Shown here: positions 10,427 to 59,850 of the stretch, piece after piece
Layout of the letters: each line of letters begins with the position of its first letter
Numbering within the stretch: the first letter of the stretch is position 1
Source: Morinoia aosen
Lineage: Eukaryota; Arthropoda; Malacostraca; Amphipoda; Talitridae
DNA length: 64,000 nucleotides
Direction of reading: 5' to 3'
NCBI GenBank assembly: GCA_030386875.1
Contig: CM059562.1
Coordinates: forward strand, 72,600,201 to 72,664,200
The notes under the pieces: model-generated
Told to the model about the DNA's origin: nothing
The model's database searches: none
The model's input: only the letters and a program-made list of their open reading frames with translations
Translations under genes and position numbers: made by a program

Positions 10427-10441
10427 TAACTTATGTAACTG
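10427..10441. repeat. Left target-site duplication of Penelope composite 1
   Basis: TAACTTATGTAACTG matches 14 of 15 positions at 15011-15025. About 40 bp of sequence not shared with the opposite tail lies between this repeat and the start of tail homology near 10482. Confidence 0.75.
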
Positions 10442-10524
10442 AGATGGGTACGTGTCTTGGAAATCTAAGTTTCATCAGGAATAAAACCACAAAAAACGGA
10501 ATAAAATTCATTTTCTAAAAATGG

Positions 10525-10570
10525 GCATTCAGACTAGCACTAGTTTCGAATATTCATTATCAATGAATGC
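10525..10570 (-). ncRNA. Hammerhead-like ribozyme motif, minus PLE copy
   Basis: Read on the minus strand, helix I GCATTCA is followed by the core-like TTGATAA, one extra T, the short helix II GAAT/ATTC, the invariant-type GAAA, a helix III of CTAG-TG-CTAG, then TC and TGAATGC. The last element pairs with all seven bases of helix I. Helix I abuts the core on both sides in the register a hammerhead requires, and GAAAC...GTC is in place. The core should be CTGANGA, so two transitions (C to T, G to A) make activity doubtful. Short palindromic helix III hairpins are known in hammerheads of Penelope-like elements. An alternative simple hairpin (ATTCATT/AATGAAT) competes. Confidence 0.5.
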
Positions 10571-10623
10571 TCTGAAAATAAGATCAAAAATATATAAAAA
10601 TTAATATTTCAATAATTGCTTTA

Positions 10624-11393
10624 CGAGGCCTGTCGAAAAAGTATCCGACCTTAATTTTTCCCGCGCAAAGTAGTGATTCTAAGGCGGCGCCACTGTGCAC
10701 GGTGGAAGGAGGAATCTTAATGCGCATGCTTGACTTTTTTCGCCGCATTCACTTGGGCCAGTCACTGGCTGGTGGTCGCCAAGTAAGGTGCTGTTCTAAG
10801 TGTTTGTCGGATTTAGTTTTCTTGCAAGATGACTGAACGAATTGAGCAAAGACACTGCATCAAATTTTGTCAAAAGCTTGGTGATTCTCAAATTGAAACA
10901 ATTCGTAAGATTCAGCAGGTGTTTGGGGAAGATGCTATGGGTGTAACACAAATTAAGGAGTGGTTCAACCGATTCAAAGATGGCCGCACATCAGCGGAGA
11001 GTGAGCAGCGTTGTGGCAGGCGTTGTGGCAGGCCGCACATTCATCCCATTTGATCCGCAATTTCTTGGCCAAACATGGAATTACGACCGTTCGCCAACCT
11101 CCCTACTCTCCAGACCTGGCTCCTTGCGACTTCTGGTTGTTTCCAAAATTGAAGACACCACTGAAAGGATCCCGTTTTGAGAGTAGAGAAGAGATAATGC
11201 GGAACGCGACGACAGAGCTGAACACCATTCCAAAAGAAGACTTCCAGAGGTGTTTCCGGCAGTGGAAGGATCGGTGGGCTAAGTGTGTGGAAGCACAAGG
11301 AGCCTACTTTGAAGGGGATTAGGGTCCCAACCCCGTCAGGTTGTTGAAGTATATTTTCTGGCCAAAGGTCGGATACTTTTTCGACAGGCCTCG
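10624..11393 (+). mobile_element. Mariner deletion derivative, 770 bp
   Basis: Perfect inverted repeats of at least 27 bp (starting CGAGGCCTGTCGAAAAAGTA) lie at 10624-10650 and 11367-11393, flanked by TA at 10622-10623 and 11394-11395. The complete family is about 1.3 kb, so some 500 bp of the interior is missing. The insertion sits in the 3' tail of the minus Penelope copy: joining its flanks restores alignment with the intact tail of the plus copy at 14858-14890. That makes it younger than the composite. With perfect ends it could have been mobilised in trans by a related transposase. Confidence 0.95.
10829..11322 (+). pseudogene. Mariner transposase with internal deletion
   Basis: Frame one (10829-11053) starts MTERIEQRHCIKFCQKLGDS and contains the N-terminal helix-turn-helix region, including QIKEWFNRFKDGRTS. 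Frame two (11011-11322) holds the C-terminal part with YSPDLAPCDFWLFP, which carries the third catalytic aspartate of the DD34D triad, and ends in a TAG after YFEGD. The central part with the first two catalytic aspartates is deleted and the two parts are out of phase. At the junction GCGTTGTGGCAG is present twice in tandem (about 11007-11032), suggesting repair or slippage. It cannot encode an active transposase. Confidence 0.93.
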
Positions 11394-11407
11394 TATATAT
11401 ATACAGC

Positions 11408-11918
11408 CTAAATAATATACAATTGACAGGCACTTTGATCACAGTTAAGAAAAGGTTTCTTGTGAAAAATGTACATTGATTCTAAAATCCGGAAATCGCT
11501 ATTACACGTAGACTCTAAAATTGGAGAAAAATCATCCACCGAAAAAATATGGTTGGTGTTTTCACAGTGAAGTCTAGGCGAAGACTGAGAAGGAGTTGCT
11601 AGCGGCCTATTAGTTCTAAATGATTTTCCTTGATGCTGGTAAAATCTAATCTTTGACTGTTTCAGAGTGCTCCCTATGTAGGAACTCTGGCAAGTTCCAC
11701 ACTGATATTTGTACACAATCCTAGAGAGCAACTCTTTCGGCAGTCTGTCTTTATACTGGAAAAATGATTTTATTTGGAAACTGTTGCGAAAAACAAACTT
11801 GAAATCGAGTTGGGGATAAAATTTTCTCAAATTCCTAGTTAAAGATTGTTTTAGCTTATCAGAAGCTGGTCCAATATACGGAAAAGATGCATATAAAGCA
11901 CATTTGGAAACTGTAGCT
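11408..11918 (-). pseudogene. Penelope-like element GIY-YIG endonuclease, minus copy
   Basis: The open minus-strand frame (175 codons, with its ATG at 11935 in foreign junction sequence) begins in element sequence at ATVSKCALY. It contains the spacer between reverse transcriptase and endonuclease (KQSLTRNLRKFYPQLDFKFV), then the cysteine-bearing GIY-YIG block (YQCGTCQSSYIGST), a basic R..QH.GKSFR segment, the RLHCENTNH histidine block and a FRILESMYI glutamate block, ending ACQLYII. All expected endonuclease landmarks are present, but the reverse transcriptase is missing because the copy is 5'-truncated. It aligns closely with 14350-14857 on the other strand. Confidence 0.9.
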
Positions 11919-12031
11919 TTAGATCTGGTGTGCAACAGCTTGTTTTCTGTGAATAAATACCATCATGGTTTGAGCAGAAAGTCTTTCATGGATTTGTTGA
12001 AGCTGGCTGTTACCAAAACGTGTTTTTATTT
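11919..12031 (+). pseudogene. Penelope-like reverse transcriptase fragment, plus copy part A
   Basis: This short plus-strand piece encodes NKYHHGLSRKSFMDLLKLAV and then TKTCFY, the segment that directly precedes the YKQIDGLAMG block in Penelope-like reverse transcriptases. That block is found 1.75 kb downstream at 13796, beyond the LINE insertion. Joining 12031 to 13786 gives a continuous protein-like reading, which shows that the LINE interrupted this copy. Confidence 0.82.
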
Positions 12032-13785
12032 AAACAATTTAAACAATTTAAGCAATTTATTTACCACAGGTGATACAGAGGTAGAATGTTTCTTAAGTCT
12101 AGTACAATGGTTAAATTTGAGAATAGCTACCTGTGGGTCCGAACAAGTTCAGCGACTTCTAGGGCATCCTATTATCACGTTATTCTAAGGTGTACAATAA
12201 TATTTAACCTAGTTTACTTAACCTAGTTTCGCATTAGACTGATCATTGAGATAATTTACTCGATATTTTATGCTGTATTTTACAATACAGGTCAAATCGG
12301 CTATATTTAACAGTATGTTCGATAAAACGATTCAAGAGCAGACTGAAGATCGGTTATGTTACCCAAAGCAAGTTACATTATTACATTATCATTAGTTACA
12401 TGTAGGAGGCAAGATTCGACATGGTGATCTTACACGACTAGTATTCTGATAGGAAGTGAGACTCAAGATGTCTTTTGAATACTTTGTACGAATTACATTT
12501 ACGGATCTCCGCCGGTATAGAGTTCCAAGTTTTGGTTCCAACGAAGAGGATACTGTGTTGCGACCGGGCCTTCGAATAATAAGGAAGCATGAATTTACTT
12601 CTATTTCGGGTTAAATGGTTGTGATGACCAGTTTGCGCAGTCAATAATTGTCTTAGGCTATTGTCGCCATCATTTCTTAGTGTTTTGTAAATGAAATTAC
12701 GGATGGAGATTTTGTAGAGATCCGAAAGTTTAAGTATTTGTAAATTTTTGAAAGAATCATTTGTGTGAGCATTATATTCTAGGTTCTTTACCGCTCTGAC
12801 AGCTTTTTTCTGCAGAGTAAAAATTTTGTTGGTTTTATTTTTATCAGTTCCGTGCCACGCTTCTATTACGTATTGCAAGTATGGAGAAATAAGCGTTCGG
12901 TAGAGCATTTGTAAAGCTGTTTCAGGCAGAAAATTTTTAACTTTATTCAGGATTCCGATGGATTTTGATATTTTAGAACTAATATGAGTGATGTGCTCTT
13001 TGAAGGTCAGATGTTTATCTACTATGATGCCCAGAAACTTACATGAGTTGGTTTCTTCGATTTCACCTTCGCCAATTTTAATGCATGGACGAGATAAATC
13101 TTTCTTGTATGAGAATGTAATATAATTTGTTTTATCAATATTAAGGCTTATTTTATTAGCTTTGAGCCACGATGAAACCTTATGAAGTTCATTATTTATA
13201 CTCTCCACAATCATAGCGGGATTTTGGTTCGGAAGGACCGCAGAAAGCGTACTGTCATCGGCAAAAAGTATGAATTTGAAGAATGATGTAGATTTTACAA
13301 TATCATTGATAAAAATCAGAAACAGGAGAGGCCCAAGAACAGATCCTTGTGGAACTCCATGGCTAATTGTCTGTGGGTCTGATTTTGCGTCGTCAATGAC
13401 AACGTATTGCTTCCGATTTGTTAGGTATGATCTGAACCAATCATGGGCAATCCCTCGAATGCCATAACAGAGTAGTTTCGAGAGTAGTATTTTATGGTCC
13501 ACACAATCGAATGCTTTTCGAAAGTCAAGAAATACAGAGAAGACAGGCTTTCCTTCATCTATATTAGAATAGAGGAATTGTAAATGATTTAATATAGCCT
13601 GTGTTGTTGATTTTTTAGAGCGAAAGCCGTATTGTTTATCGTAAAGAAATGATTTTTGTTCAAAATAAGAGTACACTTTTTGTACACAATCTTTTCGAAT
13701 ACTTTGCTAATAATTGGTAGTACGGAGATAGGTCGATAATTGTTTACACAGGTTTTTACCATCATGGTTTTTACCATCATCATTT
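12032..13785 (-). mobile_element. 5'-truncated CR1/L2-like LINE inserted in the PLE plus copy
   Basis: The element lies on the minus strand. Its 3' end at about 12032 carries a short reiterated AAATTG/TTTAAATTG tail, typical of non-LTR elements that end in a microsatellite rather than poly(A). About 400 bp of apparent 3' untranslated sequence (12040-12437) follow the reverse transcriptase frame. The endonuclease region and the start of the reverse transcriptase are missing, so it is 5'-truncated near 13785. The target duplication is at most a few bases (ATTT) and is not decisive. Confidence 0.85.
12438..13783 (-). pseudogene. Non-LTR retrotransposon reverse transcriptase (CR1/L2-like)
   Basis: The main frame (412 codons, 13676-12438) has QYGFRSKKSTTQAI, FSVFLDFRKAFDCVDH, GVPQGSVLGPLLFLIFINDI and the catalytic LFADDSTL. 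A thumb-type LGIIVDKHLTFKEHI block follows, then the C-terminal WNSIPAEIRKCNSYKVFK tail common in the Jockey/CR1/L2 group. Upstream, NYRPISVLPIISKVFEKIVY is in another phase (13783-13670), so a frameshift lies near 13670-13690. The polymerase motifs are intact, but the protein lacks its apurinic-type endonuclease and its N-terminus. It was probably dead on arrival from 5' truncation. Confidence 0.92.
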
Positions 13786-14857
13786 CAATAATATTTTGTA
13801 CAAACAGATAGATGGCCTGGCAATGGGTAACCCTCTAGCCCCTACTTTGGCGAACATATTTATGTGCAATATGGAAAATAAGTACCTGTCTTCTTGTGCA
13901 GATTTTTTCAAACCTGTTTTTTATAACCGATATTTGGACGATACTTTTGTTATTTTTAATGATGTCACTCATGCCAATCTGTTTCTAGATCAGTCAACAC
14001 CCAAATATCAAATTCACTATGGATGTAGAAAATGATAAAGTTTTGCCTTTTTTTTTAGACGTTCGGGTTCAACGCTTTGACAATCATCTTCAACTAGGCA
14101 TTTATCGGAAACCGACTTTCACTGGTCTAAGAAATAGTTTCTTCAGCTTTACTCCTTTTATTTTTAAACTGAATAGTTTGAGAACATTTCTTCACAGAGC
14201 CTTTCACTTGTCATCAAACTACCATAAGTTTTGCGACGAACTAAATTATTTGAGAACATTTTTTTCTACCAATGGATACCCTCAATATATTTTTGACTAT
14301 ACTCTTAAAAAGTTTTTAAACAAAATGTTCGATAAGCCAGAGGTCACGGTAGCTACAGTTTCCAAATGTGCTTTATATGTATCTCTTCCGTATATTGGAA
14401 AAACTTCTGATGAGCTAAAACAATCTTTAACTAGGAATTTGAGAAAATTTTATCCCCAACTCGATTTCAAATTTGTTTTTCGCAACAGTTTCCAAATAAA
14501 ATCATTTTTCCAGTATAAAGACAGACTGCCGAAAGAGTTACTCTCTAGTATTGTGCACAAATATCAGTGTGGAACTTGCCAGAGTTCCTACATAGGGAGC
14601 ACTCTGAAACCGTCAAAGATTAGATTGTACCAGCATCTAGGCAAATCATTTAGAACTAATAGGCCGCTAGCAACTTCTTGTCAGTCTTCGCCTAGACTTC
14701 ACTGTGAAAACACCAACCATATTTTCTCGGTGGATGATTTTCAATTTTAGAGTCTACGTGTAATAGCGATCTCCGGATTTTAGAATCAATGCACATTTTT
14801 AAGCAGAAACCTGTTCTTAACTGTGATCAAAGTGCCTGTCAATTGTATATTATATAG
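13786..14857 (+). pseudogene. Penelope-like RT/GIY-YIG endonuclease, plus copy part B
   Basis: Reading resumes with YKQIDGLAMGNPLAPTLANI, then RYLDDTFVIF with the catalytic YLDD, then after a frameshift near 14025 FFLDVRVQRFDN, YRKPTFTGL, and the GIY-YIG block YQCGTCQSSYIGST with its following R, H and E blocks. A four-base deletion near 14741, relative to the minus copy, shifts the frame and gives an early stop at 14750. The remaining residues (LRILESMHI to ACQLYII, ending at 14857) are visible in another frame. The polymerase and endonuclease are both recognisable but the gene is broken at least twice, besides the LINE insertion. Confidence 0.92.
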
Positions 14858-14922
14858 GCTGTATATATATTTAGCAATTATTGAACTTTCAATTTTTATA
14901 TATTGTTGATCTTATTTTCAGA

Positions 14923-14968
14923 GCATTCATTGATAATGAATATTAGAAACTAGCGCTAGTCTGAATGA
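14923..14968 (+). ncRNA. Hammerhead-like ribozyme motif, plus PLE copy
   Basis: Same fold as the minus-copy motif: GCATTCA, TTGATAA, T, GAAT/ATTA, GAAAC, a CTAG-CG-CTAG helix III, TC, TGAATG. Helix III differs from the other copy in its loop (CG against TG) but keeps its pairing, while the closing base pair of helix II is lost (A for C). The motif lies about 45 bp before the end of the element. Confidence 0.5.
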
Positions 14969-15010
14969 CACTTTTCAGAAAAATGAATTTTATTCCGTTG
15001 TTTGTGGTTT

Positions 15011-15025
15011 TAACTTATGAAACTG
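15011..15025. repeat. Right target-site duplication of Penelope composite 1
   Basis: TAACTTATGAAACTG directly follows the plus-copy tail (GTTTGTGGTTT) and pairs with 10427-10441 with one mismatch. Confidence 0.75.
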
Positions 15026-39661: not shown

Positions 39662-39674
39662 ATATTGTTAAACT
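39662..39674. repeat. Left target-site duplication of Penelope composite 2
   Basis: ATATTGTTAAACT is identical to 44240-44252 and directly abuts the element end (AAAAAGGAGAACC). Confidence 0.88.
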
Positions 39675-39735
39675 AAAAAGGAGAACCAACGTACATATAT
39701 ACATATTTATTTATTTCTTTTAATGGCAAACGTTT

Positions 39736-39760
39736 CGGAATGTTTCAATTCCATCTTCAG
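39736..39760 (-). ncRNA. Hammerhead-core-like motif, minus PLE copy
   Basis: On the minus strand the sequence reads CTGAAGA, one T, GGAAT, a TGAAAC loop, ATTCC, then GAAAC. This is the CUGANGA core, a five-base-pair helix II and the GAAA core of a hammerhead. An ACGT that could form helix III recurs about 45 bases further on as ACGTT, but a helix I partner is not evident. Confidence 0.35.
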
Positions 39761-40054
39761 TGCTGAAAAACATACAAAAGGTCAAAAAGATCAAAAAACG
39801 TCAAAAAACTCAAAATACAGAAAGTTCATACATGTTAAAAAATAAAAAAAATTTTTTATAGCAAACAAACATCTATAAAACTTTAATCCTACTGATGATT
39901 CAACTACAGTAAAAACGATCATTCTCATCGGCTCATTCACCCACCATTTTACAGTACATACATTCATACATTTACACATGGGAACCTAACAAACAGACGC
40001 GCGCAAACACACTCCACATCCATACATACATACATACATACACACAGAAATATG

Positions 40055-42268
40055 TCAGTAGATTGACGCAATGTTCAGTTTCACGGCACTCAAGTCTTTA
40101 TTTAAGTCAGGTTTATGAGTAGATATGAACAAAGATTCTAAAATACGAAGATCTTGTTCGTTGTTGGTGGTACACAGAGTGGAGAAATTTTTTGTTCTGA
40201 AAGGATGATTAAATTGTTGACAATGATCTCGGATTGATGAATGAGAAGGAGAAGAAAGTATGCGACCGGTTCTATGGGAAATTCCTGAATGTTGGCTGTG
40301 TCTAATAAATTGTTGAAGTTTAGTACTACCAACATAAGTCTGCATGCAGCAGTCACACTTATAAAAATAAACACATCCACTCCACAGGCACTCCTCCAGA
40401 CGTTCTTTCCTCCTAAAATATGAAGCGATTTTAAAACTATTTCTATAAAACACCCTGACGTCAATTGAAGTGAAAAACCGACTAACCAGAGCTACAACTT
40501 CTCTTTTCAGCTCCGAGTTCAAATAGCCCAAAAAAGGTAGTTCTACATACAATTTCTGCTTTGCTACGCTCAAAGTGACCTGAGAGGAACAGTATTTTTT
40601 ATCTAGAAATTTTTTGACGAAATTATCAATGAGATATTTAGGATACATGTTCTTAATCAATAATGTCTTAATAAATTCTATTTCACGGTGGAATATTTCA
40701 AAACTGCTGGATACACGATATGCACGGTGAAGTAATGTAATTATGCAAGATTTGATATATCCCTTATAGATACAACTGAAATAGTTGGTACTTAAGCCAG
40801 TAAATGTAGGTTTCCTGTAGACAGAGGTAATAAGCCTGGAGTTTGACTTTTTTACGAGTACATCTAAGAAAGGAATTTGGCCATTTTGTTCTATTTCCAT
40901 AGTAAATTTGATATTTGGATGAGATGCATTGATATATTCATAGAAATTAGTAGCTTCACTTTCGGAACGGAACAAAACAAACGTATCGTCCAAATATCGA
41001 CGGTAGAATAAGGGCTTAAATTCTGTGGGGCAGTGGGCCAAAAATTTTTTCTCTAAGTTAGCCAGGAACGAATTTGCCAAGAGGGGAGACAAGCTTGAGC
41101 CCATTGCCAGACCATCAATTTGTTGGTAAGTTTTCCCGTTGAATACAAAAAATGAATCTTTTAGTGCGATGTCTAGCAAGCGTTTGAATTGAGCCCTGTC
41201 GTAATTCATTATGGTGAGATTGTCTTGAAAAATACGTTCAAGCAAAACATTAATTGATTCTTCTAGTGGTACGTTTGTATACATGGATTCTACATCAAAA
41301 CTACACATGAACAGATTTTCTATGCCGTCAACAGTCGATAAATCGTGTACAAAGTGATACGAGTTTTCCACGGAAAATTCACTATTACAAAAAGGTGTTA
41401 ACACCGGTACTAAATTTGAACAAAGTTTAGAATTAGGGGTATTACAGGCAGATAAAATTGGTCTCATCGGTACATCTGGTTTATGAATTTTAGGTAATCC
41501 ATATAAAACACCAAGTTGAGAACCCACTGAACGGCACGCATTGTATAATTCGTCAGTTAAAATGCCAAGCTCTTTGTCTTTTTTAAGTCTATAATTGATT
41601 TTATCCTCTAGTTTTAGCACCAACGTTTTTTTATCAATTGTTTCTTCACGAAATTTATCCCGATCGGCAAGAATGGATTCTATTTTCGAAATATAGTCGA
41701 GTTTATTGAGTATTACAACTCCATTCCCTTTATCTGGTTTGGTAACATGGATCGAATCGTTAGTGCCTAACTTTTTGAGAACTGAAAAATCTCTCGGTTT
41801 GAACATAGCACAAGTATTATTATTACGATCAAATTTGTTATAAAATTTATGCGCTAGATTTTTCAAACTGCTGTGAAACGTTTCCCGGCTGTTATGAATA
41901 TAAGGGGTAATTTGAAATTTAGACAGTCTCTCGTACAAGCGTTCAAAAGCTAAAAAATATTTGTGAAAGTTCAGTTTAGAAATTGGCAAACCGAATTCTA
42001 GTCCTAAGCACAGAACCCGTTTTTCGTCTGACGATAAAACTCTATTTGACAAATTAAAAATAACCGTTGATGGTTCAATGCTATTGCACAATGGAGAAAC
42101 ACCTAACCTGACTAGTTTGTTAGTTTGCACTCTTCTAACGTTGGTAACATATTGCACTTGTTTACGAGAAAGCCACAATCTGATACAAGCAAAATCAATT
42201 GACGATATTTTCGATTCGATGACGATCCATGAAAATCTGTTCATGTGTAGTTTTGATGTAGAATCCAT
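40055..42268 (-). CDS. Penelope-like reverse transcriptase/GIY-YIG endonuclease, intact frame
   Basis: This single 737-codon frame encodes the protein that primes and reverse-transcribes the element. In order it has LYGLPKIHKP and MRPILSACNTP (about residues 257-280), the palm block FDVESMYTNVPLEESI, YQQIDGLAMGSSLSPLLANS, the catalytic RYLDDTFVLF, FLDVLVKKSNSRL and YRKPTFTGLSTNYF. The C-terminal GIY-YIG endonuclease follows, with CVYFYKCDCCMQTYVGST, the RHSQHSGISHR block, a SIRDHCQQFNHPF histidine block and LRILESLFI with its glutamate. No stop or shift interrupts it. The annotated ATG at 42268 and the first dozen codons are antisense to the neighbouring plus copy, so the native N-terminus is probably missing. 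Family proteins are usually slightly longer. Confidence 0.93.
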   Translation of the reverse strand: MDSTSKLHMNRFSWIVIESKISSIDFACIRLWLSRKQVQYVTNVRRVQTNKLVRLGVSPLCNSIEPSTVIFNLSNRVLSSDEKRVLCLGLEFGLPISKLNFHKYFLAFERLYERLSKFQITPYIHNSRETFHSSLKNLAHKFYNKFDRNNNTCAMFKPRDFSVLKKLGTNDSIHVTKPDKGNGVVILNKLDYISKIESILADRDKFREETIDKKTLVLKLEDKINYRLKKDKELGILTDELYNACRSVGSQLGVLYGLPKIHKPDVPMRPILSACNTPNSKLCSNLVPVLTPFCNSEFSVENSYHFVHDLSTVDGIENLFMCSFDVESMYTNVPLEESINVLLERIFQDNLTIMNYDRAQFKRLLDIALKDSFFVFNGKTYQQIDGLAMGSSLSPLLANSFLANLEKKFLAHCPTEFKPLFYRRYLDDTFVLFRSESEATNFYEYINASHPNIKFTMEIEQNGQIPFLDVLVKKSNSRLITSVYRKPTFTGLSTNYFSCIYKGYIKSCIITLLHRAYRVSSSFEIFHREIEFIKTLLIKNMYPKYLIDNFVKKFLDKKYCSSQVTLSVAKQKLYVELPFLGYLNSELKREVVALVSRFFTSIDVRVFYRNSFKIASYFRRKERLEECLWSGCVYFYKCDCCMQTYVGSTKLQQFIRHSQHSGISHRTGRILSSPSHSSIRDHCQQFNHPFRTKNFSTLCTTNNEQDLRILESLFISTHKPDLNKDLSAVKLNIASIY

Positions 42269-42297
42269 GTATACAAACGTACCACTAGAAGAATCAA
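42231..42297 (+). repeat. 67-bp junction duplication between the two PLE copies
   Basis: GAAAATCTGTTCATGTGTAG and the bases following it at 42231-42297 are identical to 42551-42617, exactly 320 bp downstream in the plus copy. The segment is out of order: it encodes the FDVESMYTNVPLEES palm block but is joined to sequence that normally lies upstream of it. This points to a template switch when the composite formed. Confidence 0.95.
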
Positions 42298-43817
42298 AGA
42301 GCTTGGCATTTTAACTGACGAATTATACAATGCGTGCCGTTCAGTGGGTTCTCAACTTGGTGTTTTATATGGATTACCTAAAATTCATAAACCAGATGTA
42401 CCGATGAGACCAATTTTATCTGCCTGTAATACCCCTAATTCTAAACTTTGTTCAAATTTAGTACCGGTGTTAACACCTTTTTGTAATAGTGAATTTTCCG
42501 TGGAAAACTCGTATCACTTTGTACACGATTTATCGACTGTTGACGGCATAGAAAATCTGTTCATGTGTAGTTTTGATGTAGAATCCATGTATACAAACGT
42601 ACCACTAGAAGAATCAATTAATGTTTTGCTTGAACGTATTTTTCAAGACAATCTCACCATAATGAATTACGACAGGGCTCAATTCAAACGCTTGCTAGAC
42701 ATCGCACTAAAAGATTCATTTTTTGTATTCAACGGGAAAACTTACCAACAAATTGATGGTCTGGCAATGGGCTCAAGCTTGTCTCCCCTCTTGGCAAATT
42801 CGTTCCTGGCTAACTTAGAGAAAAAATTTTTGGCCCACTGCCCCACAGAATTTAAGCCCTTATTCTACCGTCGATATTTGGACGATACGTTTGTTTTGTT
42901 CCGTTCCGAAAGTGAAGCTACTAATTTCTATGAATATATCAATGCATCTCATCCAAATATCAAATTTACTATGGAAATAGAACAAAATGGCCAAATTCCT
43001 TTCTTAGATGTACTCGTAAAAAAGTCAAACTCCAGGCTTATTACCTCTGTCTACAGGAAACCTACATTTACTGGCTTAAGTACCAACTATTTCAGTTGTA
43101 TCTATAAGGGATATATCAAATCTTGCATAATTACATTACTTCACCGTGCATATCGTGTATCCAGCAGTTTTGAAATATTCCACCGTGAAATAGAATTTAT
43201 TAGGACATTATTGATTAAGAACATGTATCCTAAATATCTCATTGATAATTTCGTCAAAAAATTTCTAGATAAAAAATACTGTTCCTCTCAGGTCACTTTG
43301 AGCGTAGCAAAGCAGAAATTGTATGTAGAACTACCTTTTTTGGGCTATTTGAACTCGGAGCTGAAAAGAGAAGTTGTAGCTCTGGTTAGTCGGTTTTTCA
43401 CTTCAATTGACGTCAGGGTGTTTTATAGAAATAGTTTTTAAAATCGCTTCATATTTTAGGAGGAAAGAACGTCTGGAGGAGTGCCTGTGGAGTGGATGTG
43501 TTTATTTTTATAAGTGTGACTGCTGCATGCAGACTTATGTTGGTAGTACTAAACTTCAACAATTTATTAGACACAGCCAACATTCAGGAATTTCCCATAG
43601 AACCGGTCGCATACTTTCTTCTCCTTCTCATTCATCAATCCGAGATCATTGTCAACAATTTAATCATCCTTTCAGAACAAAAAATTTCTCCACTCTGTGT
43701 ACCACCAACAACGAACAAGATCTTCGTATTTTAGAATCTTTGTTCATATCTACTCATAAACCTGACTTAAATAAAGACTTGAGTGCCGTGAAACTGAACA
43801 TTGCGTCAATCTACTGA
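42296..43817 (+). pseudogene. Penelope-like RT/endonuclease, truncated and frameshifted plus copy
   Basis: The plus copy resumes at the codons for ELGILTDELYNACRS and stays open in frame 42344-43441 through all remaining reverse transcriptase motifs, including RYLDDTFVLF. One extra T in the run at about 43435-43439 (five T against four in the minus copy) stops the frame right after FYRNSF. The whole GIY-YIG part then follows in the next frame to 43817. Protein identity to the minus copy is essentially complete apart from one Lys/Arg change. It is inactive through 5' truncation and this single insertion. Confidence 0.95.
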
Positions 43818-44111
43818 CATATTTCTGTGTGTATGTATGTATGTATGTATGGATGTGGAGTGTGTTTGCGCGCGTCTGTTTGTTAGGTTCCCATGTGTAA
43901 ATGTATGAATGTATGTACTGTAAAATGGTGGGTGAATGAGCCGATGAGAATGATCGTTTTTACTGTAGTTGAATCATCAGTAGGATTAAAGTTTTATAGA
44001 TGTTTGTTTGCTATAAAAATTTTTTTTTATTTTTTAACATGTATGAACTTTCTGTATTTTGAGTTTTTTGACGTTTTTTGATCTTTTTGACCTTTTGTAT
44101 GTTTTTCAGCA

Positions 44112-44140
44112 CTGAAGATGGAATTGAAACATTCCGAAAC
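44112..44140 (+). ncRNA. Hammerhead-core-like motif, plus PLE copy
   Basis: CTGAAGA at 44112-44118, helix II GGAAT/ATTCC and GAAAC at 44136-44140 mirror the minus copy. As in the older composite, a single extra T separates the CTGANGA-like core from helix II. Confidence 0.35.
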
Positions 44141-44239
44141 GTTTGCCATTAAAAGAAATAAATAAATATGTATATATGTACGTTGGTTCTCCTTTTTATC
44201 TTACGCGTGAGATTCCCTAAGAATCGACCTATTGGAAAT

Positions 44240-44252
44240 ATATTGTTAAACT
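44240..44252. repeat. Right target-site duplication of Penelope composite 2
   Basis: ATATTGTTAAACT is identical to 39662-39674. About 40 bp starting ATCTTACGCGTGAGATTCCC lie between it and the end of arm homology. Confidence 0.88.
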
Positions 44253-44770
44253 GAGGTAATTTCAGGACTTGGGCCTAAATATTGTGTGGTTCGGTCCGTT
44301 CAAAGAAGGGCGCTCCGAAAAGGTATATTTAGATAACGATCTCCTTTTTCAGCGCTACTGTAGATTGTCCAGTGAATTTTCCTACTCTTAAGTGCGAACA
44401 TTAGGTGCCTCAGATGCCTTAATCGTTACCTTTTCTCATTCATTTAAGAATCGAGAATTTATAGTAAGAAGGTAAGCTTTCATTAAAACAATGCTATTAT
44501 CGATCACCATAGTTTTCGAATTATTGTTTGTTGTCATTATCTTTCTCTAGTCCACCCCCCTAAATTTGAAATAAGAGAGAAGGCGAAATAAAAGAAAGGC
44601 CGTAAAAATAGAAAGAATTCAATCTCTCGAGAGTTGATGAAGCTTGTATCACAGATACGCTCGTCATACACTGCAGGCTGGCTTCGGACAGACGGACGGA
44701 CGCGGCTCTTATTATAGTATATATATTATGACCAACGTAACGTGTTAAAATGAGTTCTATAACGATGATG
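44253..44770. other. Unassigned DNA
   Basis: Flank of the Penelope composite. No feature was recognised. Confidence 0.3.
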
Positions 44771-47329: not shown

Positions 47330-50300
47330 TTCTCATGTAAATATATTTTCATGTAATATATTCTCATGTAATATATTCTCATGTAATATATTCTCATCTA
47401 AATATATTCTCATGTAATATATTCTCATGTAATATATTCTCATGTAATATATTCTCATGTAATATATTCTCATCTAAATATATTCTCATGTAATATATTC
47501 TCATGTAATATATTCTCATGTAATATATTCTCATGTAATATATTCTCATGTAATATATTCTCATGTAATATATTCTCATGTAATATATTCTCATGTAATA
47601 TATTCTCATGTAATATATTCTCATGTAATATATTCTCATGTAATATATTCTCATGTAAATATATTCTCATGTAAATATATTCTCATGTAATATATTCTCA
47701 TGTAATATATTCTCATGTAAATATATTCTCATGTAAATATATTCTCATGTAATATATTCTCATGTAATATATTCTCATGTAATATATTCTCATCTAAATA
47801 TATTCTCATGTAATATATTCTCATGTAATATATTCTCATGTAATATATTCTCATGTAATATATTCTCATGTAAATATATTCTAATGTAAATATATTCTCA
47901 TGTAATATATTCTCATGTAACATATTCTCATGTAATATATTCTCATGTAATATATTCTCATGTAATATATTCTCATGTAATATATTCTCATGTAATATAT
48001 TCTCATGTAATATATTCTCATGTAATATATTCTCATGTAATATATTCTCATGTAATATATCCTCATGTAATATATTCTCATCTAAATATATTCTCATGTA
48101 ATATATTCTCATGTAAATATATTCTCATGTAATATATTCTCATGTAATATATTCTCATGTAATATATTCTCATGTAATATATTCTCATGTAATATATTCT
48201 CGTGTAAATATATTCTCATGTAAATATATTTTCATGTAATATATTCTCATGTAATATATTCTCATGTAATATATTCTCATCTAAATATATTCTCATGTAA
48301 TATATTCTCATGTAAATATATTCTCATGTAATATGTTCTCATCTAAATATATTCTCGTGTAAATATATTCTCATGTAATATATTCTCATGTAAATATATT
48401 CTCATGTAATATATTCTCATGTAATATATTCTCATGTAATATATTCTCATCTAAATATATTCTCATGTAATATATTCTCATGTAAATATATTCTCATGTA
48501 ATATGTTCTCATCTAAATATATTCTCATGTAATATATTCTCATGTAATATATTCTCATCTAAATATATTCTCATGTAATATATTCTCATGTAAATATATT
48601 CTCATGTAATATGTTCTCATCTAAATATATTCTCATGTAATATATTCTCATGAAAATATATTCTCATGTAATATATTCTCATGTAAATATATTCTCATGT
48701 AATATATTCTCATGTAATATATTCTCATGTAATATATTCTCATCTAAATATATTCTCATGTAATATATTCTCATGTAAATATATTCTCATGTAATATGTT
48801 CTCATCTAAATATATTCTCATGTAATATATTCACATGTAATATATTCTCATGTAATATGTTCTCATCTAAATATATTCTCATGTAATATATTCTCATGTA
48901 ATATATTCTCATGTAAATATATTCTCATGTAATATATTCTCATGTAATATATTCTCATGTAATATATTCTCATGTAATATATTCTCATGTAATATGTTCT
49001 CATGTAATATATTCTCATGTAATATATTCTCATGTAATATATTCTCATGTAAATATATTCTCATGTAATATATTCTCATGTAAATATATTCTGATGTAAT
49101 ATATTCTCATGTAATATATTCTCATCTAAATATATTCTCATGTAATATATTCTCATGTAATATATTCTCATGTAAATATATTCTCATGTAATATATTCTC
49201 ATGTAATATATTCTCATGTAATATATTCTCATCTAAATATATTCTCATGTAATATATTCTCATGTAAATATATTCTCATGTAATATATTCTCATGTAATA
49301 TATTCTCATGTAATATATTCTCATGTAAATATATTCTCATGTAATATATTCTCATGTAAATATATTCTCATGTAATATATTCTCATCTAAATATATTCTC
49401 ATGTAATATATTCTCATGTAATATATTCTCATCTAAATATATTCTCATGTAAATATATTCTCATGTAATATATTCTCATGTAATATATTCGCATGTAATA
49501 TATTTTCATGTAATATATTCTCATCTAAATATGTTCTCATCTAAATATATTCTCATGTAAATATATTCTCATGTAATATATTCTCATGTAATATATTCTC
49601 ATCTAAATATATTCTCATGTAATATATTCTCATGTAATATATTCTCATCTAAATATATTCTCATGTAATATATTCTCATGTAAATATATTCTCATGTAAT
49701 ATATTCTCATGTAATATATTCTCATGTAATATATTCTCATGTAATATATTCTCATGTAATATATTCTCATGTAAATATATTCTCATGTAAATATATTCTC
49801 ATGTAATATATTCTCATGTAATCTATTCTCATCTAAATATATTCTCATGTAATATATTCTCATGTAATATATTCTCATGTAAATATATTCTCATGTAAAT
49901 ATATTCTCATGTAAATATATTCTCATGTAATATATTCTCATGTAATATATTCTCATCTAAATATATTCTCATGTAATATATTCTCATGTAAATATATTCT
50001 CATGTAATATATTCTCATGTAATATATTCTCATGTAATATACTCTCATGTAATATATTCTCATGTAATATATTCTCATGTAATATATTCTCATGTAATAT
50101 ATTCTCATGTAATATATTCTCATGTAAATATATTCTCATGTAAATATATTCTCATGTAAATATATTCTCATGTAATATATTCTCATCTAAATATATTCTC
50201 ATGTAATATATTCTCATGTAATATATTCTCATGTAAATATATTCTCATGTAAATATATTCTCATGTAAATATATTCTCATGTAATATATTCTCATGTAAT

Positions 50301-53300
50301 ATATTCTCATCTAAATATATTCTCATGTAATATATTCTCATGTAAATATATTCTCATGTAATATATTCTCATGTAATATATTCTCATGTAATATATTCTC
50401 ATGTAATATATTCTCATGCAATATATTCTCATGTAAATATATTTTCATGTAATATATTCTCATGTAATATATTCTCATGTAAATATATTCTCATGTAATA
50501 TATTCTCATGCAATATATTCTCATGTAATATATTCTCATGTAAATATATTCTCATGCAATATATTCTCATGTAATATATTCTCATGTAAATATATTCTCA
50601 TGTAATATATTCTCATGTAAATATATTCTCATGTAATATATTCTCATGTAAATATATTCTCATGTAATATATTCTCATGTAATATATTCTCATGTAATAT
50701 ATTCTCATGTAATATATTCTCATGTAAATATATTCTCATGTAATATATTCTCATGCAATATATTCTCATGTAATATATTCTCATGTAATATATTCTCATC
50801 TAAATATATTCTCATGTAATATATTCTCATGTAAATATATTCTCATGTAATATATTCTCATGTAAATATATTCTCATGTAATATATTCTCATGTAATATA
50901 TTCTCATGTAATATATTCTCATGTAATATATTCTCATGTAAATATATTCTCATGTAATATATTCTCATGCAATATATTCTCATGTAATATATTCTCATGC
51001 AATATATTCTCATGTAATATATTCTCATGCAATATATTCTCATGTAATATATTCTCATGTAATATATTCTCATGTAATATATTCTCATGTAATATATTCT
51101 CATGTAATATATTCTCATGTAATATATTCTCATGTAATATATTCTCATCTAAATATATTCTCATGTAATATATTCTCATGTAATATATTCTCATGTAATA
51201 TATTCTCATGTAATATATTCTCATGTAATATATTCTCATGTAAATATATTCTCATGTAATATATTCTCATGTAATATATTCTCATGTAAATATATTCTCA
51301 TGTAATATATTCTCATGTAATATATTCTCATGTAATATATTCTCATGTAAATATATTCTCATGCAATATATTCTCATGTAATATATTCTCATGTAATATA
51401 TTCTCATGTAAATATATTCTCATCTAAATATATTCTCATGTAAATATATTCTCATGTAATATATTCTCATCTAAATATATTCTCATGTAATATATTCTCA
51501 TGTAATATATTCTCATGTAATATATTCTCATGTAATATATTCTCATGTAATATATTCTCATGTAAATATATTCTCATGTAATATATTCTCATGTAATATA
51601 TTCTCATGTAAATATATTCTCATGTAATATATTCTCATGTAATATATTCTCATGTAATATATTCTCATGTAAATATATTCTCATGCAATATATTCTCATG
51701 TAATATATTCTCATGTAATATATTCTCATGTAAATATATTCTCATGTAATATATTCTCATGTAAATATATTCTCATGTAATATATTCTCATGTAAATATA
51801 TTCTCATGTAATATATTCTCATGTAATATATTCTCATGTAATATATTCTCATGTAATATATTCTCATGTAAATATATTCTCATGTAATATATTCTCATGC
51901 AATATATTCTCATATAATATATTCTCATGTAATATATTCTCATGTAATATATTCTCATGTAATATATTCTCATCTAAATATATTCTCATGTAATATATTC
52001 TCATCTAAATATATTCTCATGTAATATATTCTCATGTAATATATTCTCATGTAAATATATTCTCATGTAATATATTCTCATGTAATATATTCTCATGTAA
52101 ATATATTCTCATGTAATATATTCTCATGTAATATATTCTCATGTAATATATTCTCATGTAAATATATTCTCATGCAATATATTCTCATGTAATATATTCT
52201 CATGTAATATATTCTCATGTAAATATATTCTCATCTAAATATATTCTCATGTAAATATATTCTCATGTAATATATTCTCATCTAAATATATTCTCATGTA
52301 ATATATTCTCATGTAATATATTCTCATGTAATATATTCTCATGTAATATATTCTCATGTAATATATTCTCATGTAATATATTCTCATGTAATATATTCTC
52401 ATGTAATATATTCTCATGTAATATATTCTCATGTAAATATATTCTCATGTAATATATTCTCATGTAATATATTCTCATGTAAATATATTCTCATGTAATA
52501 TATTCTCATGTAATATATTCTCATGTAATATATTCTCATGTAAATATATTCTCATGCAATATATTCTCATGTAATATATTCTCATGTAATATATTCTCAT
52601 GTAAATATATTCTCATGTAATATATTCTCATGTAAATATATTCTCATGTAATATATTCTCATGTAAATATATTCTCATGTAATATATTCTCATGTAATAT
52701 ATTCTCATGTAATATATTCTCATGTAATATATTCTCATGTAAATATATTCTCATGTAATATATTCTCATGCAATATATTCTCATATAATATATTCTCATG
52801 TAATATATTCTCATGTAATATATTCTCATGTAATATATTCTCATGTAAATATATTCTCATGTAATATATTCTCATGTAATATATTCTCATGTAATATATT
52901 CTCATGCAATATATTCTCATATAATATATTCTCATGTAATATATTCTCATGTAATATATTCTCATGTAATATATTCTCATGTAAATATATTCTCATGTAA
53001 TATATTCTCATGTAATATATTCTCATGTAAATATATTCTCATGTAATATATTCTCATGCAATATATTCTCATATAATATATTCTCATGTAATATATTCTC
53101 ATGTAATATATTCTCATGTAATATATTCTCATGTAAATATATTCTCATGCAATATATTCTCATATAATATATTCTCATGTAATATATTCTCATGTAATAT
53201 ATTCTCATGTAAATATATTCTCATGTAATATATTCTCATGTAATATATTCTCATGTAATATATTCTCATGTAAATATATTCTCATGCAATATATTCTCAT

Positions 53301-55040
53301 GTAATATATTCTCATGTAATATATTCTCATGTAAATATATTCTCATGTAATATATTCTCATGTAAATATATTCTCATGTAATATATTCTCATGTAAATAT
53401 ATTCTCATGTAATATATTCTCATGTAATATATTCTCATGTAATATATTCTCATGTAATATATTCTCATGTAAATATATTCTCATGTAATATATTCTCATG
53501 CAATATATTCTCATATAATATATTCTCATGTAATATATTCTCATGTAATATATTCTCATGTAATATATTCTCATGTAAATATATTCTCATGTAATATATT
53601 CTCATGTAATATATTCTCATGTAATATATTCTCATGCAATATATTCTCATATAATATATTCTCATGTAATATATTCTCATGTAATATATTCTCATGTAAT
53701 ATATTCTCATGTAAATATATTCTCATGTAATATATTCTCATGTAATATATTCTCATGTAAATATATTCTCATGTAATATATTCTCATGCAATATATTCTC
53801 ATATAATATATTCTCATGTAATATATTCTCATGTAATATATTCTCATGTAATATATTCTCATGTAAATATATTCTCATGCAATATATTCTCATATAATAT
53901 ATTCTCATGTAATATATTCTCATGTAATATATTCTCATCTAAATATATTCTCATGTAATATATTCTCATCTAAATATATTCTCATGTAATATATTCTCAT
54001 GTAATATATTCTCATGTAAATATATTCTCATGTAATATATTCTCATGTAATATATTCTCATGTAATATATTCTCATCGAAATATATTCTCATGTAATATA
54101 TTCTTATGTAATATATTCTCATGTAAATATATTCCCATGTAATATATTCTCATGTAATATATTCTCATGTAATATATTCTCATGTAAATATATTCTCATG
54201 TAATATATTCTCATGTAATATATTCTCATGTAACATATTCTCATGTAAATATATTCTCATGTAATATATTCTCATGTAAATATATTCTCATGTAATATAT
54301 TCTCATGTAATATATTCTCATGTAAATATATTCTCATGTAATATATTCTCATGTAATATATTCTCATGTAATATATTCTCATGAAATATGTTCTCATCTA
54401 AATATATTCTCATGTAATATATTCTCATGTAATATATTCTCATGTAATATATTCTCATGAAATATGTTCTCATCTAAATATATTCTCATGTAAATATATT
54501 CTCATGTAATATATTCTCATGTAATATATTCTCATGTAATATATTCTCATCGAAATATATTCTCATGTAATATATTCTTATGTAATATATTCTCATCTGA
54601 ATATATTCTCATGTACTATATTCTCATGTAATATATTCTCATGTAATATATTCTCATGTACTATATTCTCATGTAATATATTCTCATGTAATATATTCTC
54701 ATGGAATATATTCTCATGTAATATATTCTCATGTAAATATATTCTCATGTAAATATATTCTCATGTAATATATTCTCATGTAATATGTTCTCATCTAAAT
54801 ATATTCTCATGTAATATATTCTCATGTAATATATTCTCATGTAATATATTCTCATGTAAATATATTCTCATGTAATATATTCTTATGTAATATATTCTCA
54901 TGTAATATATTCTCATGTAAATATATTCTCATGTAATATATTCTCATGTAATATATTCTCATGTAATATATTCTCATGTTAATATATTCTCATGTAATAT
55001 ATTCTCATGTAATATATTCTCATGTAAATATATTCTCATA
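47330..55040. repeat. 7.7-kb satellite of mixed 15/16-bp units
   Basis: About 500 units of TAATATATTCTCATG (15 bp) and TAAATATATTCTCATG (16 bp) alternate in irregular order. Variants are linked to length: CTAAA occurs in 16-bp units, whereas GCAA and ATAA occur in 15-bp units. GCAA units appear from about 50.42 kb rightwards and ATAA units from about 51.91 kb, while CTAAA units and ATATGTTC variants cluster at 47.4-50.3 kb and again near 54.4-54.8 kb. The 15-bp unit has no stop in two minus-strand phases, hence the many repetitive frames of MRIYY or HENIL type. Each 16-bp unit switches phase. These are not genes. Confidence 0.98.
52437..53938. repeat. 730-bp higher-order duplication inside the 15/16-bp satellite
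   Basis: The order of 15- and 16-bp units and of GCAA/ATAA variants at 52437-53208 recurs without visible change at 53167-53938, an offset of exactly 730 bp. A single base (G to C at 53939) ends the match. Offsets of about 811 bp (51361 against 52172) and 871 bp (51681 against 52552) mark other segment copies. Confidence 0.9.
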
Positions 55041-56250: not shown

Positions 56251-56480
56251 CCAAAGAGTTGCGTCAGGCGCAAGGGAGGGAGGCTGTGTTTGTTTAACCT
56301 CAATAGGCGCCTGAAAGAGGCAGCTCACAGAGCTCAACAGCAGAGAGAACTGCGGAGAAGAGGTCGCATGAAATAGCTGCGTCCGAGCGTCAGGACGAGG
56401 CTTAAATGAATGCTGTGATTAAACCGAACTGCCTTGCATGGCCCTTAAATGGCTGGGCTGCGGCTGCGAGCGAGGCTGTG
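56251..56480. other. Spacer before the 16-bp satellite
   Basis: A GC-richer 230-bp segment with no recognised gene. Confidence 0.3.
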
Positions 56481-59101
56481 TGAGTGTTGCGTATTGTGGT
56501 GCTGTGTTGCTGCAGTGCTGCAGTGTTGTGTTGTAACAGTGCTGGAGTGTTGTGTCGTAACTGTGCTACAGTGTTGTGTCGTAACTGTGCTGCAGTGTCG
56601 TGGCGCTGCAGTGTTGTAGTGCTGCAGCGTTGTGGTGCTGCTGTGTTGTAGCGCTGCAGTGTTGTAGTGCTGCAGTGTTGTGGTGCTGCTGTGTTGTAGT
56701 GCTGCAGCGTTGTGGTGCTGCTGTGTTGTAGCGCTGCAGTGTTGTAGTGCTGCAGTGTCGTGGCGCTGCAGTGTTGTAGTGCTGCAGCGTTGTGGTGCTG
56801 CTGTGTTGTAGCGCTGCAGTGTTGTAGTGCTGCAGCGTTGTGGTGCTGCTGTGTTGTAGCGCTGCAGTTTTGTAGTGCTGCAGCGTTGTAGTGCTGCAGT
56901 GTTGTAGTGCTGCAGTGTTGTAGTGCTGCAGCGTTGTAGTGCTGCAGCGTTGTGGTGCTGCTGTGTTGTAGCGCTGCAGTGTTGTAGTGCTGCAGCGTTG
57001 TAGTGCTGCAGTGTTGTAGTGCTGCAGTGTTGTAGTGCTGCAGCGTTGTAGTGCTGCAGCGTTGTGGTGCTGCTGTGTTGTAGCGCTGCAGTGTTGTAGT
57101 GCTGCAGCGTTGTAGTGCTGCAGTGTTGTAGTGCTGCAGTGTTGTAGTGCTGCAGTGTTGTAGTGCTGCAGTGTTGTAGCGCTGCAGTGTTGTAGTGCTG
57201 CAGCGTTGTAGTGCTGCAGCGTTGTAGTGCTGCAGTGTTGTAGTGCTGCAGCGTTGTAGTGCTGCAGTGTTGTAGTGCTGCAGTGTTGTAGTGCTGCAGT
57301 GTTGTAGTGCTGCAGCGTTGTAGTGCTGCAGCGTTGTAGTGCTGCAGTGTTGTAGTGTTGCAGTGTTGTCGTGCTGCAGTGTTGTAGTGCTGTAGTGTTG
57401 TAGTGCTGCAGTGTTGTAGTGCTGCAGTGTTGTAGCGCTGCAGTGTTGTAGTGCTGCAGTTGTAGTGGTGCAGTGTTGTAGTGCTGCAGTGTTGTAGTGC
57501 AGCAGTGTTGTAGTGCTGCAGTGTTGTAGCGCTGCAGTGTTGTAGTGCTGCAGTGTTGTAGTGCTGCAGCGTTGTAGTGCTGCAGTGTTGTAGTGCTGCA
57601 GTGTTGCAGTGCTGCAGTGTTGTAGTGCTGCCATGTTGTAGTGCTGCAGTGTTGTAGTGCTGCAGTGTTGTAGTGCTGCAGTGTTGTAGCGCTGCACTGT
57701 TGTAGTGCTGCAGTGTTGTAGTGCTGGAGCGTTGTAGTGTTGCAGTGTTGTAGTGCTGCAGTGTTGTAGCGCTGCAGTGTTGTAGTGTTGCAGTGTTGTA
57801 GTGCTGCAGTGTTGTAGTGCTGCAGTGTTGTAGTGCTGCAGTGTTGTAGTGCTGCAGTGTTGTAGTGCTGCAGTGTTGTAGTGCTGCAGTGTTGAAGTGC
57901 TGCAGTGTTGTAGTGCTGCAGTGTTGTAGTGCTGCAGCGTTGTAGTGCCGCAGTGTTGTAGTGCTGCAGCGTTGTGGTGCTGCAGTATTGTAGTGCTGCA
58001 GTGTTGTAGCGCAGCAGTGTTGTAGTGCTGCAGTGTTGTAGTGCTGCAATGTTGAAGTGCTGCAGTGTTAAAGTGCTGCAGTGTTGTAGTGCTGCAGTGT
58101 TGTAGTGCTGCAGTGTTGTAGTGCTGCAGTGCTGTAGTGCTGCAGCGTTGTAGTGCTGCAGTGTTGTAGTGCTGCAGCGTTGTAGCGCTGCAGTGTTGTA
58201 GTGCTGCAGTGTTGTAGTGCTGCAGTGTTGTAGTGCTGCAGTGTTGTAGTGTTGCAGTGTTGTAGTGCTGCAGTGTTTTAGTGCTGCAGTGTTGTAGTGC
58301 TGCAGCGTTGTAGTGCTGCAGTGTTGTAGAGCTGCAGTGTTGTAGTGCTGCAGTATTGTAGTGCTGCAGTGTTGTTGTGCTGCAGTGTTGTAGTGCTGAA
58401 GTGTTGTAGTACTGCAGTGTTGTAGTGCTGGAGTGTTGTAGTGCTGCAGTGCTGTAGTACTGCAGTGTTGTAGTGCTACAGTGTTGTAGTGCTGCAGTGT
58501 TGTAGTGCTGCAGTGTTGTAGTGCTACAGTGTTGTAGAGCTGCAGTGTTGTAGAGCTGCAGTGTTGTAGTACTGCAGTGTTGTAGTGCTGCAGTGTTGTA
58601 GTGCTGCAGTGTTGTAGTACTGCAGTGTTGTAGTGCTACAGTGTTGTAGTGCTGCAGTGTTGTAGTGCTGCAGTGTTGTAGTGCTGCAGCGTTGTAGTGC
58701 TGCAGTGTTGTAGAGCTGCAGTGTTGTAGTACTGCAGTGTTGCAGTGCTACAGTGTTGTAACGCTGCAGTGTTGTAGTGCTGCAGTGTTGTAGTGCTGCA
58801 GTGTTGTAGAGCTGCAGTGTTGTAGAGCTGCAGTGTTGTAGTACTGCAGTGTTGTAGTGCTGCAGTGTTGTAGTGCTGCAGTGTTGTAGTACTGCAGTGT
58901 TGTAGTGCTACAGTGTTGTAGTGCTGCAGTGTTGTAGTGCTGCAGTGTTGTAGTGCTGCAGCGTTGTAGTGCTGCAGTGTTGTAGAGCTGCAGTGTTGTA
59001 GTGCTGCAGTGTTGTAGTCCTGCAGTGTTGTAGTGCTGCAGTGCTGTAGTGCTGCAGCGTTGTAGTGCTGCAGTGTTGTAGTGCTGCACTACAACACTGC
59101 A
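56481..59101. repeat. 16-bp satellite GTGCTGCAGTGTTGTA, about 160 units
   Basis: The unit GTGCTGCAGTGTTGTA contains a CTGCAG hexamer and repeats for 2.6 kb. At the left, 48-bp trimers with GCAGCGTTGTGGTGCTGCTG-type units recur. At the right, GTACTGCAG, GTGCTACAG and GTAGAGCTGCAG variants follow a 272-bp (17-unit) order, seen at 58569 and again at 58841. The unit has no stop in any minus-strand phase, so frames of up to 534 codons (56445-58049) rich in Gln, His, Asn, Thr and Ala stay open. They are artefacts of sequence composition. Confidence 0.97.
59069..59101. repeat. Perfect terminal hairpin of the 16-bp satellite
   Basis: TGCAGTGTTGTAGTG (59069-59083), CTG, then CACTACAACACTGCA (59087-59101) form a 15-bp perfect inverted repeat with a three-base loop exactly where the array stops. 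The last unit has turned to the opposite orientation. Confidence 0.95.
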
Positions 59102-59850
59102 ATACAAAATTATTTCGATTTGAAAAATTTATAAATTTAAAACCACATACTTTGACAGATTTATATTTTAATATCACATCAATGTCAGGAAAAGGAAAAT
59201 TATAATTTTTGACTATCAATTACAGCAATTCAAATGTTGCACTTTAATTTAGTTTATTTCGGATGAGCTTAACGGTATTCTGGATTTCGAGGCCACATTC
59301 ATCGCGCATAATATCCGACGTCACGCAGTTCTTTCCGTTCTGCTGTAAACGATTCACGACAAGCGCACAATACTGGCAAGTAAACGAGCGAGAGTAGGAA
59401 CGAGCAAGCGATCAAGCGAGCAAGCGAGCAATTGCACATCAACCCAAGACACCATCAGAGCATGCAATCTCCTCCAGAAATAAAAAGGGGACTGGCAAAA
59501 GGAGAAAAGAGCCGTAAACGGCACAGTCTTTGCTATAAGACCAAGTAGAAGCATGGCTATCGGCACGACGCTTGAAGGTGTGGGTGCGCTGGACCAGATG
59601 GAACTGAACAGGTACGAATGTAGGCCAAAACAACGGTAGGAAAATAAAGTTGAAGAAGGTACCAAGATGAGGAAATGGGGCAAAAAGATGCGTTAAATGA
59701 AACTAACGATGAGATAATTTGAATGGGAATCAAGTCACTAGAAATGGCTAAGAAAGAGGCTGACAAAATGACACAAATAATTTACCACGGTATTACGGGA
59801 ATTCATGAGCACTTCCTAAGAATCTATGATGCTGTCTACTCCAATAGTTT
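59102..59850. other. Unassigned DNA
   Basis: A short GAGCAAGCGA-type repeat lies at 59380-59432. The 109-codon minus frame (59354-59683) has no motif I recognise. Confidence 0.35.

Follow-up and report, generated by a model that had tools for sequence, protein, structure and literature searches.

The pair of Penelope-like elements (PLEs) found at positions 39662-44252 of the window (i.e., the whole 64-kb stretch of DNA analyzed here) was very probably created by a single insertion event, in which target-primed reverse transcription was initiated on each side of a single staggered cut. The two copies lie head-to-head, with their 5' sides central and their 3' ends outermost, and one target site duplication (TSD) brackets the whole unit (Table 1). 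This architecture, the TSD, the rule that one arm of a pair carries a 3' tail and the other does not, the unrelated lengths of the arms and an empty site corresponding to a sister pair were established directly. With less confidence, we lean toward the view that each two-ended insertion uses both start sites for reverse transcription once, one per strand; because each site would be used once, the head-to-head pair with a single tail would then be the primary PLE product, and single copies would be derived.

Table 1. Features of the two head-to-head PLE pairs in the window.
Feature	Positions	Strand	Remarks
PLE1 pair, left TSD	39662..39674	+	ATATTGTTAAACT; 13 bp, exact match to 44240-44252
PLE1 pair, left copy	39675..42230	-	Outer 3' end at 39675 without tail, 5' truncation at 42230; 3' end aligned with other copies
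Hammerhead-like core, left copy	39732..39760	-	Pattern match
Templated filler at head-to-head junction	42231..42297	+	67 bp; 100% identity to 42551-42617
PLE1 pair, right copy	42298..44198	+	5'-truncated; matched arm from 42295
Hammerhead ribozyme-like core, 3' region of right copy	44112..44140	+	CUGAAGA...GAAAC; pattern match
3' tail	44199..44239	+	41 bp; right arm only
PLE1 pair, right TSD	44240..44252	+	Same 13-mer as left
PLE2 pair, left TSD	10427..10439	+	TAACTTATGTAAC; 12/13 identical to 15011-15023
PLE2 pair, left copy	10440..11918	-	Tailed (about 10440-10470)
PLE2 pair, right copy	11919..15010	+	Tailless; inner limit 11919 by eye from translation
PLE2 pair, right TSD	15011..15023	+	TAACTTATGAAAC

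A preliminary description of this region had reported two inverted, nearly identical arms of about 1.9 kb with clean boundaries, bracketed together by an identical 13-bp direct repeat. Alignment of the arms (39674-41576 against 42295-44198) bore out their similarity, with 99.84% identity over 1904 alignment columns and three differing positions, comprising two substitutions and one 1-nt run-length difference. The bracketing repeat was likewise confirmed, as this 13-mer has exactly two occurrences across the 64 kb of the window, those given in Table 1, and is absent from the reverse complement; anchor pairs drawn at random from the window gave an anchored match of at least 13 bp within 80 bp in 3 of 179,367 trials. 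Since base 39674 belongs to both the 13-mer and the element end, the length of the duplication is best given as 12-13 bp. The boundaries are clean on the left, where the arm abuts the repeat and shares this base with it, but not on the right, where 41 bp lie between arm and repeat; while the inverted arms are present as described, this right tail and the 67-bp central filler had been overlooked. The 41 bp represent element sequence, because, among 40 listed matches to a query that included the tail, 37 (one of them the window itself) extend to the tail end.

The left copy is the longer of the two and contains a single open frame of 751 codons, the initial codons of which come from the central 67-bp piece, while the frame of the right copy is interrupted at 43435 by the 1-nt run-length difference. 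The filler is also a reverse copy of 41254-41320, and the trinucleotide CAA is common to both sides of the switch point at 42295-42297 (by eye). Comparison of either flank with the center of the pair gave a longest common string of 7 nt, and no second copy of the left flank was found in the genome except for a 95-bp stretch of 82% identity. Apart from the two pairs in Table 1, a tblastn search that used the PLE proteins as queries (E up to 1e-3) found no PLE copies in the window.

PLEs are an already known kind of element, and the proposed Penelope identity of the pair was supported by RVT_1 matches in both copies (E about 1e-13). In the family of this pair, designated PLE1, we found the PLE traits of a reverse transcriptase domain, tandem units, an optional tail, 5' truncation, TSDs and head-to-head copies; tails, TSDs and head-to-head copies also occur in a second family, PLE2. 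Both families also keep a C-terminal C-x2-C...Y-x-G-S-T...I-R pattern, which may be that of a GIY-YIG endonuclease; no Pfam GIY-YIG match was listed for the PLE protein up to E 10, the predicted model of the endonuclease region was poor (mean pLDDT 46) and a PDB sequence search gave non-significant matches only (best E 0.086), some of which were reverse transcriptases. The hammerhead-like core was matched twice, compared to 0.42 matches expected, with at least two matches in 6 of 100 shuffles and with both matches representing one sequence; an Rfam search gave no hammerhead hit in positions 1-48000 of the window at gathering score, nor with a cutoff of E 5 in 43700-44400. Outside the source genome, no relatives were found in viral-contig, genome-contig or plasmid collections.

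The window's own assembly (1.99 Gb, 29 contigs) was searched for further members of PLE1. The resulting 33 loci consisted of all 30 search clusters, including the window, and three additional loci, which were the best-scoring ones not yet examined among 13 further stretches found with the tail-containing query; since 40 of 3600 candidates were scored, this sample favors young, long copies. Head-to-head pairs with two outward 3' ends were present at 23/33 loci, so that the orientation reported for the window pair is shared by 22 further pairs, and what had been presented as a special case is the usual product among the loci sampled. No tail-to-tail pair was found in the sequence stretches examined at the 33 loci. 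When tails were tabulated for each arm, one arm was tailed and the other tailless in all 23 pairs, an outcome with a chance of about 1e-7 if tails assorted independently with a probability of one half.

Exact TSDs of at least 12 bp, mostly 12-14 bp, were identified at 21/23 PLE1 pairs, i.e., the first 20 pairs (12-18 bp) and L062 (13 bp). Of the two pairs excluded from this count, the TSD detected automatically for L063 is part of a tandem repeat, and the match at L064 is imperfect (11 of 12); the latter was read by eye and missed by the automatic search. When left flanks of the first 20 pairs were compared with right flanks of other loci, 0/380 comparisons gave a match of at least 12 bp (maximum 11). 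Moreover, the left flank of one pair, L024, has a 99% paralogue elsewhere in the genome, and this paralogous site (L024/L067) is empty, with a single copy of the 12-bp target, unbroken flanks and 778/791 identical columns. Together with the TSDs, this empty site supports the earlier proposal that both copies integrated in one event. The flank of L038 is single copy in the genome, and the left flank in the window is essentially so.

The outer ends of the arms differ in their precision. In the first 20 PLE1 pairs, the position of the tailed end hardly varies, at 39-45 nt past the tailless reference point, whereas tailless ends scatter across about 12 nt (0 to +11, with L028 at about -22). Homology between the target primer and the element RNA exceeded that of shuffled sequences at both ends in the 20 of the 23 pairs used for this comparison (L028, L063 and L064 were omitted), with a mean of 1.95 nt versus 0.67 nt at the tailless end (0/5000 shuffles) and of 2.35 nt versus 1.31 nt at the tailed end (17/5000 shuffles). 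RNA folding of the tail region was not better than that of shuffles. Arm lengths within the 23 pairs are uncorrelated (Spearman 0.17, p 0.45), with medians of 1356 for tailed and 1369 for tailless arms; the longer arm is the tailless one in 13/23 pairs and the tailed one in 10/23.

Twenty inner junctions were tabulated, excluding L062-L064. Eight show 1-2 nt of overlap, which is near chance, one has none, eight contain fillers of 2-17 nt, and the remaining three carry longer fillers, of 101 nt, 182 nt and, in the window, 67 bp. By eye, the fillers of L021, L023, L035 and the window seem to be templated. The 101-nt filler of L021 (883-985) consists of repeated short pieces that resemble neighboring element sequence (by eye), which suggests repeated re-engagement of the template before joining.

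Divergence between the arms of a PLE1 pair was 0.11-1.7% in 17/19 comparisons and 4-6% in two, and was not always lower than the divergence from the nearest other copy, a pattern compatible with either one or different source RNAs for the two arms. Tandem or partial-tandem units (pseudo-LTRs, pLTRs) occur at L009, L013/L014 (with a spacing of about 2.87 kb) and L016. At L013/L014 (G000:C7:35513801-35531370), the left arm of a head-to-head pair is about 14 kb long and comprises nearly five near-identical tandem units, which differ mostly by singletons, with two sites common to subsets of units. An RNA template that was multimeric or circular, as in a rolling-circle origin, would account for this array, as would its later expansion.

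Ten of the 33 PLE1 loci are not full pairs, and two-ended priming therefore appears to be common but not obligatory. Seven of these ten carry the tail. L017, L027 and L022 are single tailed arms with TSDs of 12, 11 and 9 bp, respectively, and with a gap of at most 15 nt between TSD and element; the 9-bp TSD of L022 is weak, as the same search yields other 9-bp matches. L034 has a partner arm of about 20 nt, all of it tail, and a 12-bp TSD. L020 and L033 contain an internal inverted piece only and have no TSD, and in the stretches examined for L018, L019, L025 and L029 neither a partner nor a TSD was found. At L017, the 5' end falls within a few bases of the element's own tail start, as if reverse transcription had stopped after one full unit.

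The window contains a second head-to-head pair, at 10440-15010, which belongs to PLE2, a family about 40% identical in protein to PLE1. This pair is older, with arms that are 90-95% identical, and its TSD is a 15-bp match with one mismatch. Since mismatched PLE2 flanks reach 10 bp (in 5/42 pairings, none longer), the exact 9-bp part of this match counts only with its one-mismatch extension. Seven PLE2 stretches were selected elsewhere for closely spaced opposite hits, and six of these and the window pair made up seven pairs; because of this selection, the PLE2 sample is uninformative on the frequency of pairs. L059 was omitted from the tail count because a 3' end is missing from its left piece. 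In 6/7 of these selected pairs, one arm is tailed and the other tailless, the exception being L056, in which both arms are tailed and no TSD is present. TSDs were found in 5/7 pairs, namely L055 (12 bp), L057 (11 bp), L058 (12 bp), L060 (16 bp, in simple repeat) and, with one mismatch, the window pair; none was found in L061. The tail is about 31-33 bp long in PLE2 and about 41 bp in PLE1. Both copies of the PLE2 window pair carry other elements. A mariner-like insertion with inverted ends TACGAGGCCTGTCGAAAAAGTATCCGACC, which appears internally deleted by eye, lies at about 10625-11394 in the left copy, and a LINE-like element, apparently 5'-truncated, lies at about 12050-13760 in the right copy and includes an RVT_1 frame at 12438-13706 (E 9e-27).

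Several of these features have precedents among PLEs. In the parts of the work on Adineta vaga consulted here (Arkhipova et al. 2013, PMC3846280), head-to-head is the most frequent inverted arrangement, TSDs of 8, 9 and 10 bp are described along with some insertions without TSD, and 5' truncation, partial tandems and an optional 31-bp tail on one inverted pLTR are reported; self-priming on an antisense template was suggested. As far as those parts show, head-to-head copies, TSDs, 5' truncation, partial tandems and the tail are thus common to A. vaga PLEs and PLE1 (PMC3846280). The inverted partner in A. vaga, however, is a pLTR, with palindromes at the inverted junction, whereas the arms of PLE1 pairs are often kilobase-long; moreover, the tail is described there as optional, whereas exactly one arm is tailed in all 23 PLE1 pairs, which have TSDs of mostly 12-14 bp. 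A guide to element curation (PMC8969392), in the part drawn upon here, mentions short 3' extensions and inverted pLTRs among the peculiarities that individual copies can show.

The Poseidon element PAc of Anolis carolinensis has been reported to cleave and extend both target strands in vitro, with two adjacent internal start sites for reverse transcription that bound the tail and with the same use of start sites on both strands (Frangieh et al. 2024, PMC11167929, in the sections considered here). PAc and PLE1 have in common a tail delimited by two adjacent start sites, and an AT-rich target, but PAc is known from an in vitro system and PLE1, here, from genomic insertions (PMC11167929, same sections). 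The PLE1 ends lie at about +81 and +122 from an ATG beside the hammerhead-like core and the preferred PAc site at +111-118; this analogy is a loose one, because that ATG opens a frame of 15 codons in this copy (by eye). In the same sections, the authors describe second-strand and later steps as yet to be validated, and we noted no statement there that each insertion uses both sites. As start sites did not differ between strands in vitro (PMC11167929), that result does not itself predict one of each per insertion. Within these parts of the two reports (PMC3846280 and PMC11167929), the PLE1 loci link the two sets of observations, in that both starts are used in one insertion. No statement of the one-tailed rule or of the two-ended model was found in the literature searched, which covered older PLE work incompletely, and priority is uncertain.

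The favored model of priming from both sides of the cut would proceed as follows. The element endonuclease would cut both target strands about 12-13 bp apart and leave two 3' overhangs, for which a length of about 12-13 nt is suggested by the TSD with both cDNAs growing from its outer edges. Each target 3'-OH would then prime reverse transcription of element RNA near the RNA 3' end; one strand would initiate at the tail site (44239 in this pair, and almost invariant across PLE1) and the other about 41 nt upstream at the tailless site (here 39675), with initiation possibly aided by 1-4 nt of homology between primer and RNA in most pairs. Each cDNA would extend for a variable length toward the 5' side of the RNA. 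The 5'-to-5' join between the two cDNAs would rely on little or no homology, or contain templated filler (67 bp in this pair), and the TSD would arise when the overhangs are filled in. The order of the cuts, the number of RNA templates, the stoichiometry of the protein and the host pathway used for joining are steps that we infer. Two-sided priming is supported by the one-tailed rule, the TSDs, the empty site, the unrelated arm lengths, the primer homology, the PLE2 pairs and the in vitro results for PAc (in the sections of PMC11167929 considered), while the double tail and missing TSD of L056, the lack of a TSD at L061, the 10/33 PLE1 loci that are not full pairs and the equal use of start sites on both strands in vitro count against it. 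Two independent cDNAs, one per side of the cut, would be expected to leave ends, arm lengths and joins such as those observed.

Self-priming, in which cDNA or antisense RNA folds back at the element 5' side and the second arm copies the first, was proposed from head-to-head pairs with palindromic junctions among A. vaga PLEs (PMC3846280, in the parts consulted). It would agree with the near-identity often seen between arms of young pairs and with the 67-bp filler, which is an inverted copy of left-arm sequence (the L023 filler is similar, with adjacent sequence, by eye). However, this process predicts a copy that is nested in its template and has the same 3' boundary, whereas the arms end differently in 23/23 pairs, and the tailless arm outreaches the tailed arm in 13/23 and hence is not nested. 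Moreover, a tailed arm cannot derive from a tailless one, and the 41-bp tail in the window has at most 5 nt in common with the inverted left flank. Self-priming is therefore already contradicted by the arm extents and the tail asymmetry, could be rescued only if tails were added separately, and appears improbable. Slightly less probable still is twin priming of the L1 type, in which priming by the second target strand takes place inside the RNA that is already being copied, and an inverted 5' segment results. In L1, as in the model favored here, the second cut strand primes reverse transcription and the inversion is joined by end joining; classical twin priming does not copy the 3' region twice, and only one arm has the element 3' end. 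L020 and L033 in PLE1 and L059 in PLE2, with short internal inverted pieces lacking an outward 3' end, would be compatible with such a process, but both outer ends are 3' ends in all 23 pairs, whose arms overlap from the 3' end onward, so that this region was copied twice. The second priming is thus internal in L1 and, in PLE1, would occur at a second 3'-terminal site, with overlapping arms and 3' ends on both sides.

The opposite orientation of the copies could also reflect two independent insertions, the second beside or into the first. We regard this as highly improbable given that a single TSD brackets the whole unit, that either flank and the center of the window pair share strings of at most 7 nt, that the pattern is found at 23 loci and that one empty site indicates a single event. 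A fold-back chimera has an equally minimal probability; near-perfect inverted repeats are a recognized form of assembly artefact, but the flanks are not inverted, the left flank in the window is essentially single copy, and the arms end at different places and differ in mutations. As many loci agree in this architecture, an artefact is very unlikely.

If the one-tailed head-to-head pair is indeed the primary PLE product, PLE integration would differ in mode from that of LINEs as well as from that of LTR elements. Inverted pLTRs, optional tails and the head-to-head bias would all be accounted for by one mechanism. This clean series of genomic insertions connects actual products of integration with the two start sites and the extension of both strands seen in vitro. 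Moreover, any PLE-rich genome can be examined for the simple rule of one tailed arm, one tailless arm and a TSD mostly 12-14 bp long, and the rule lends itself to biochemical reconstitution.

Beyond the PLE pairs, the window contains low-complexity arrays at 48001-54000 and 56402-59128, which comprise a strongly skewed stretch of about 20% GC and an array of 8/16-bp units. The latter leaves several long frames open.
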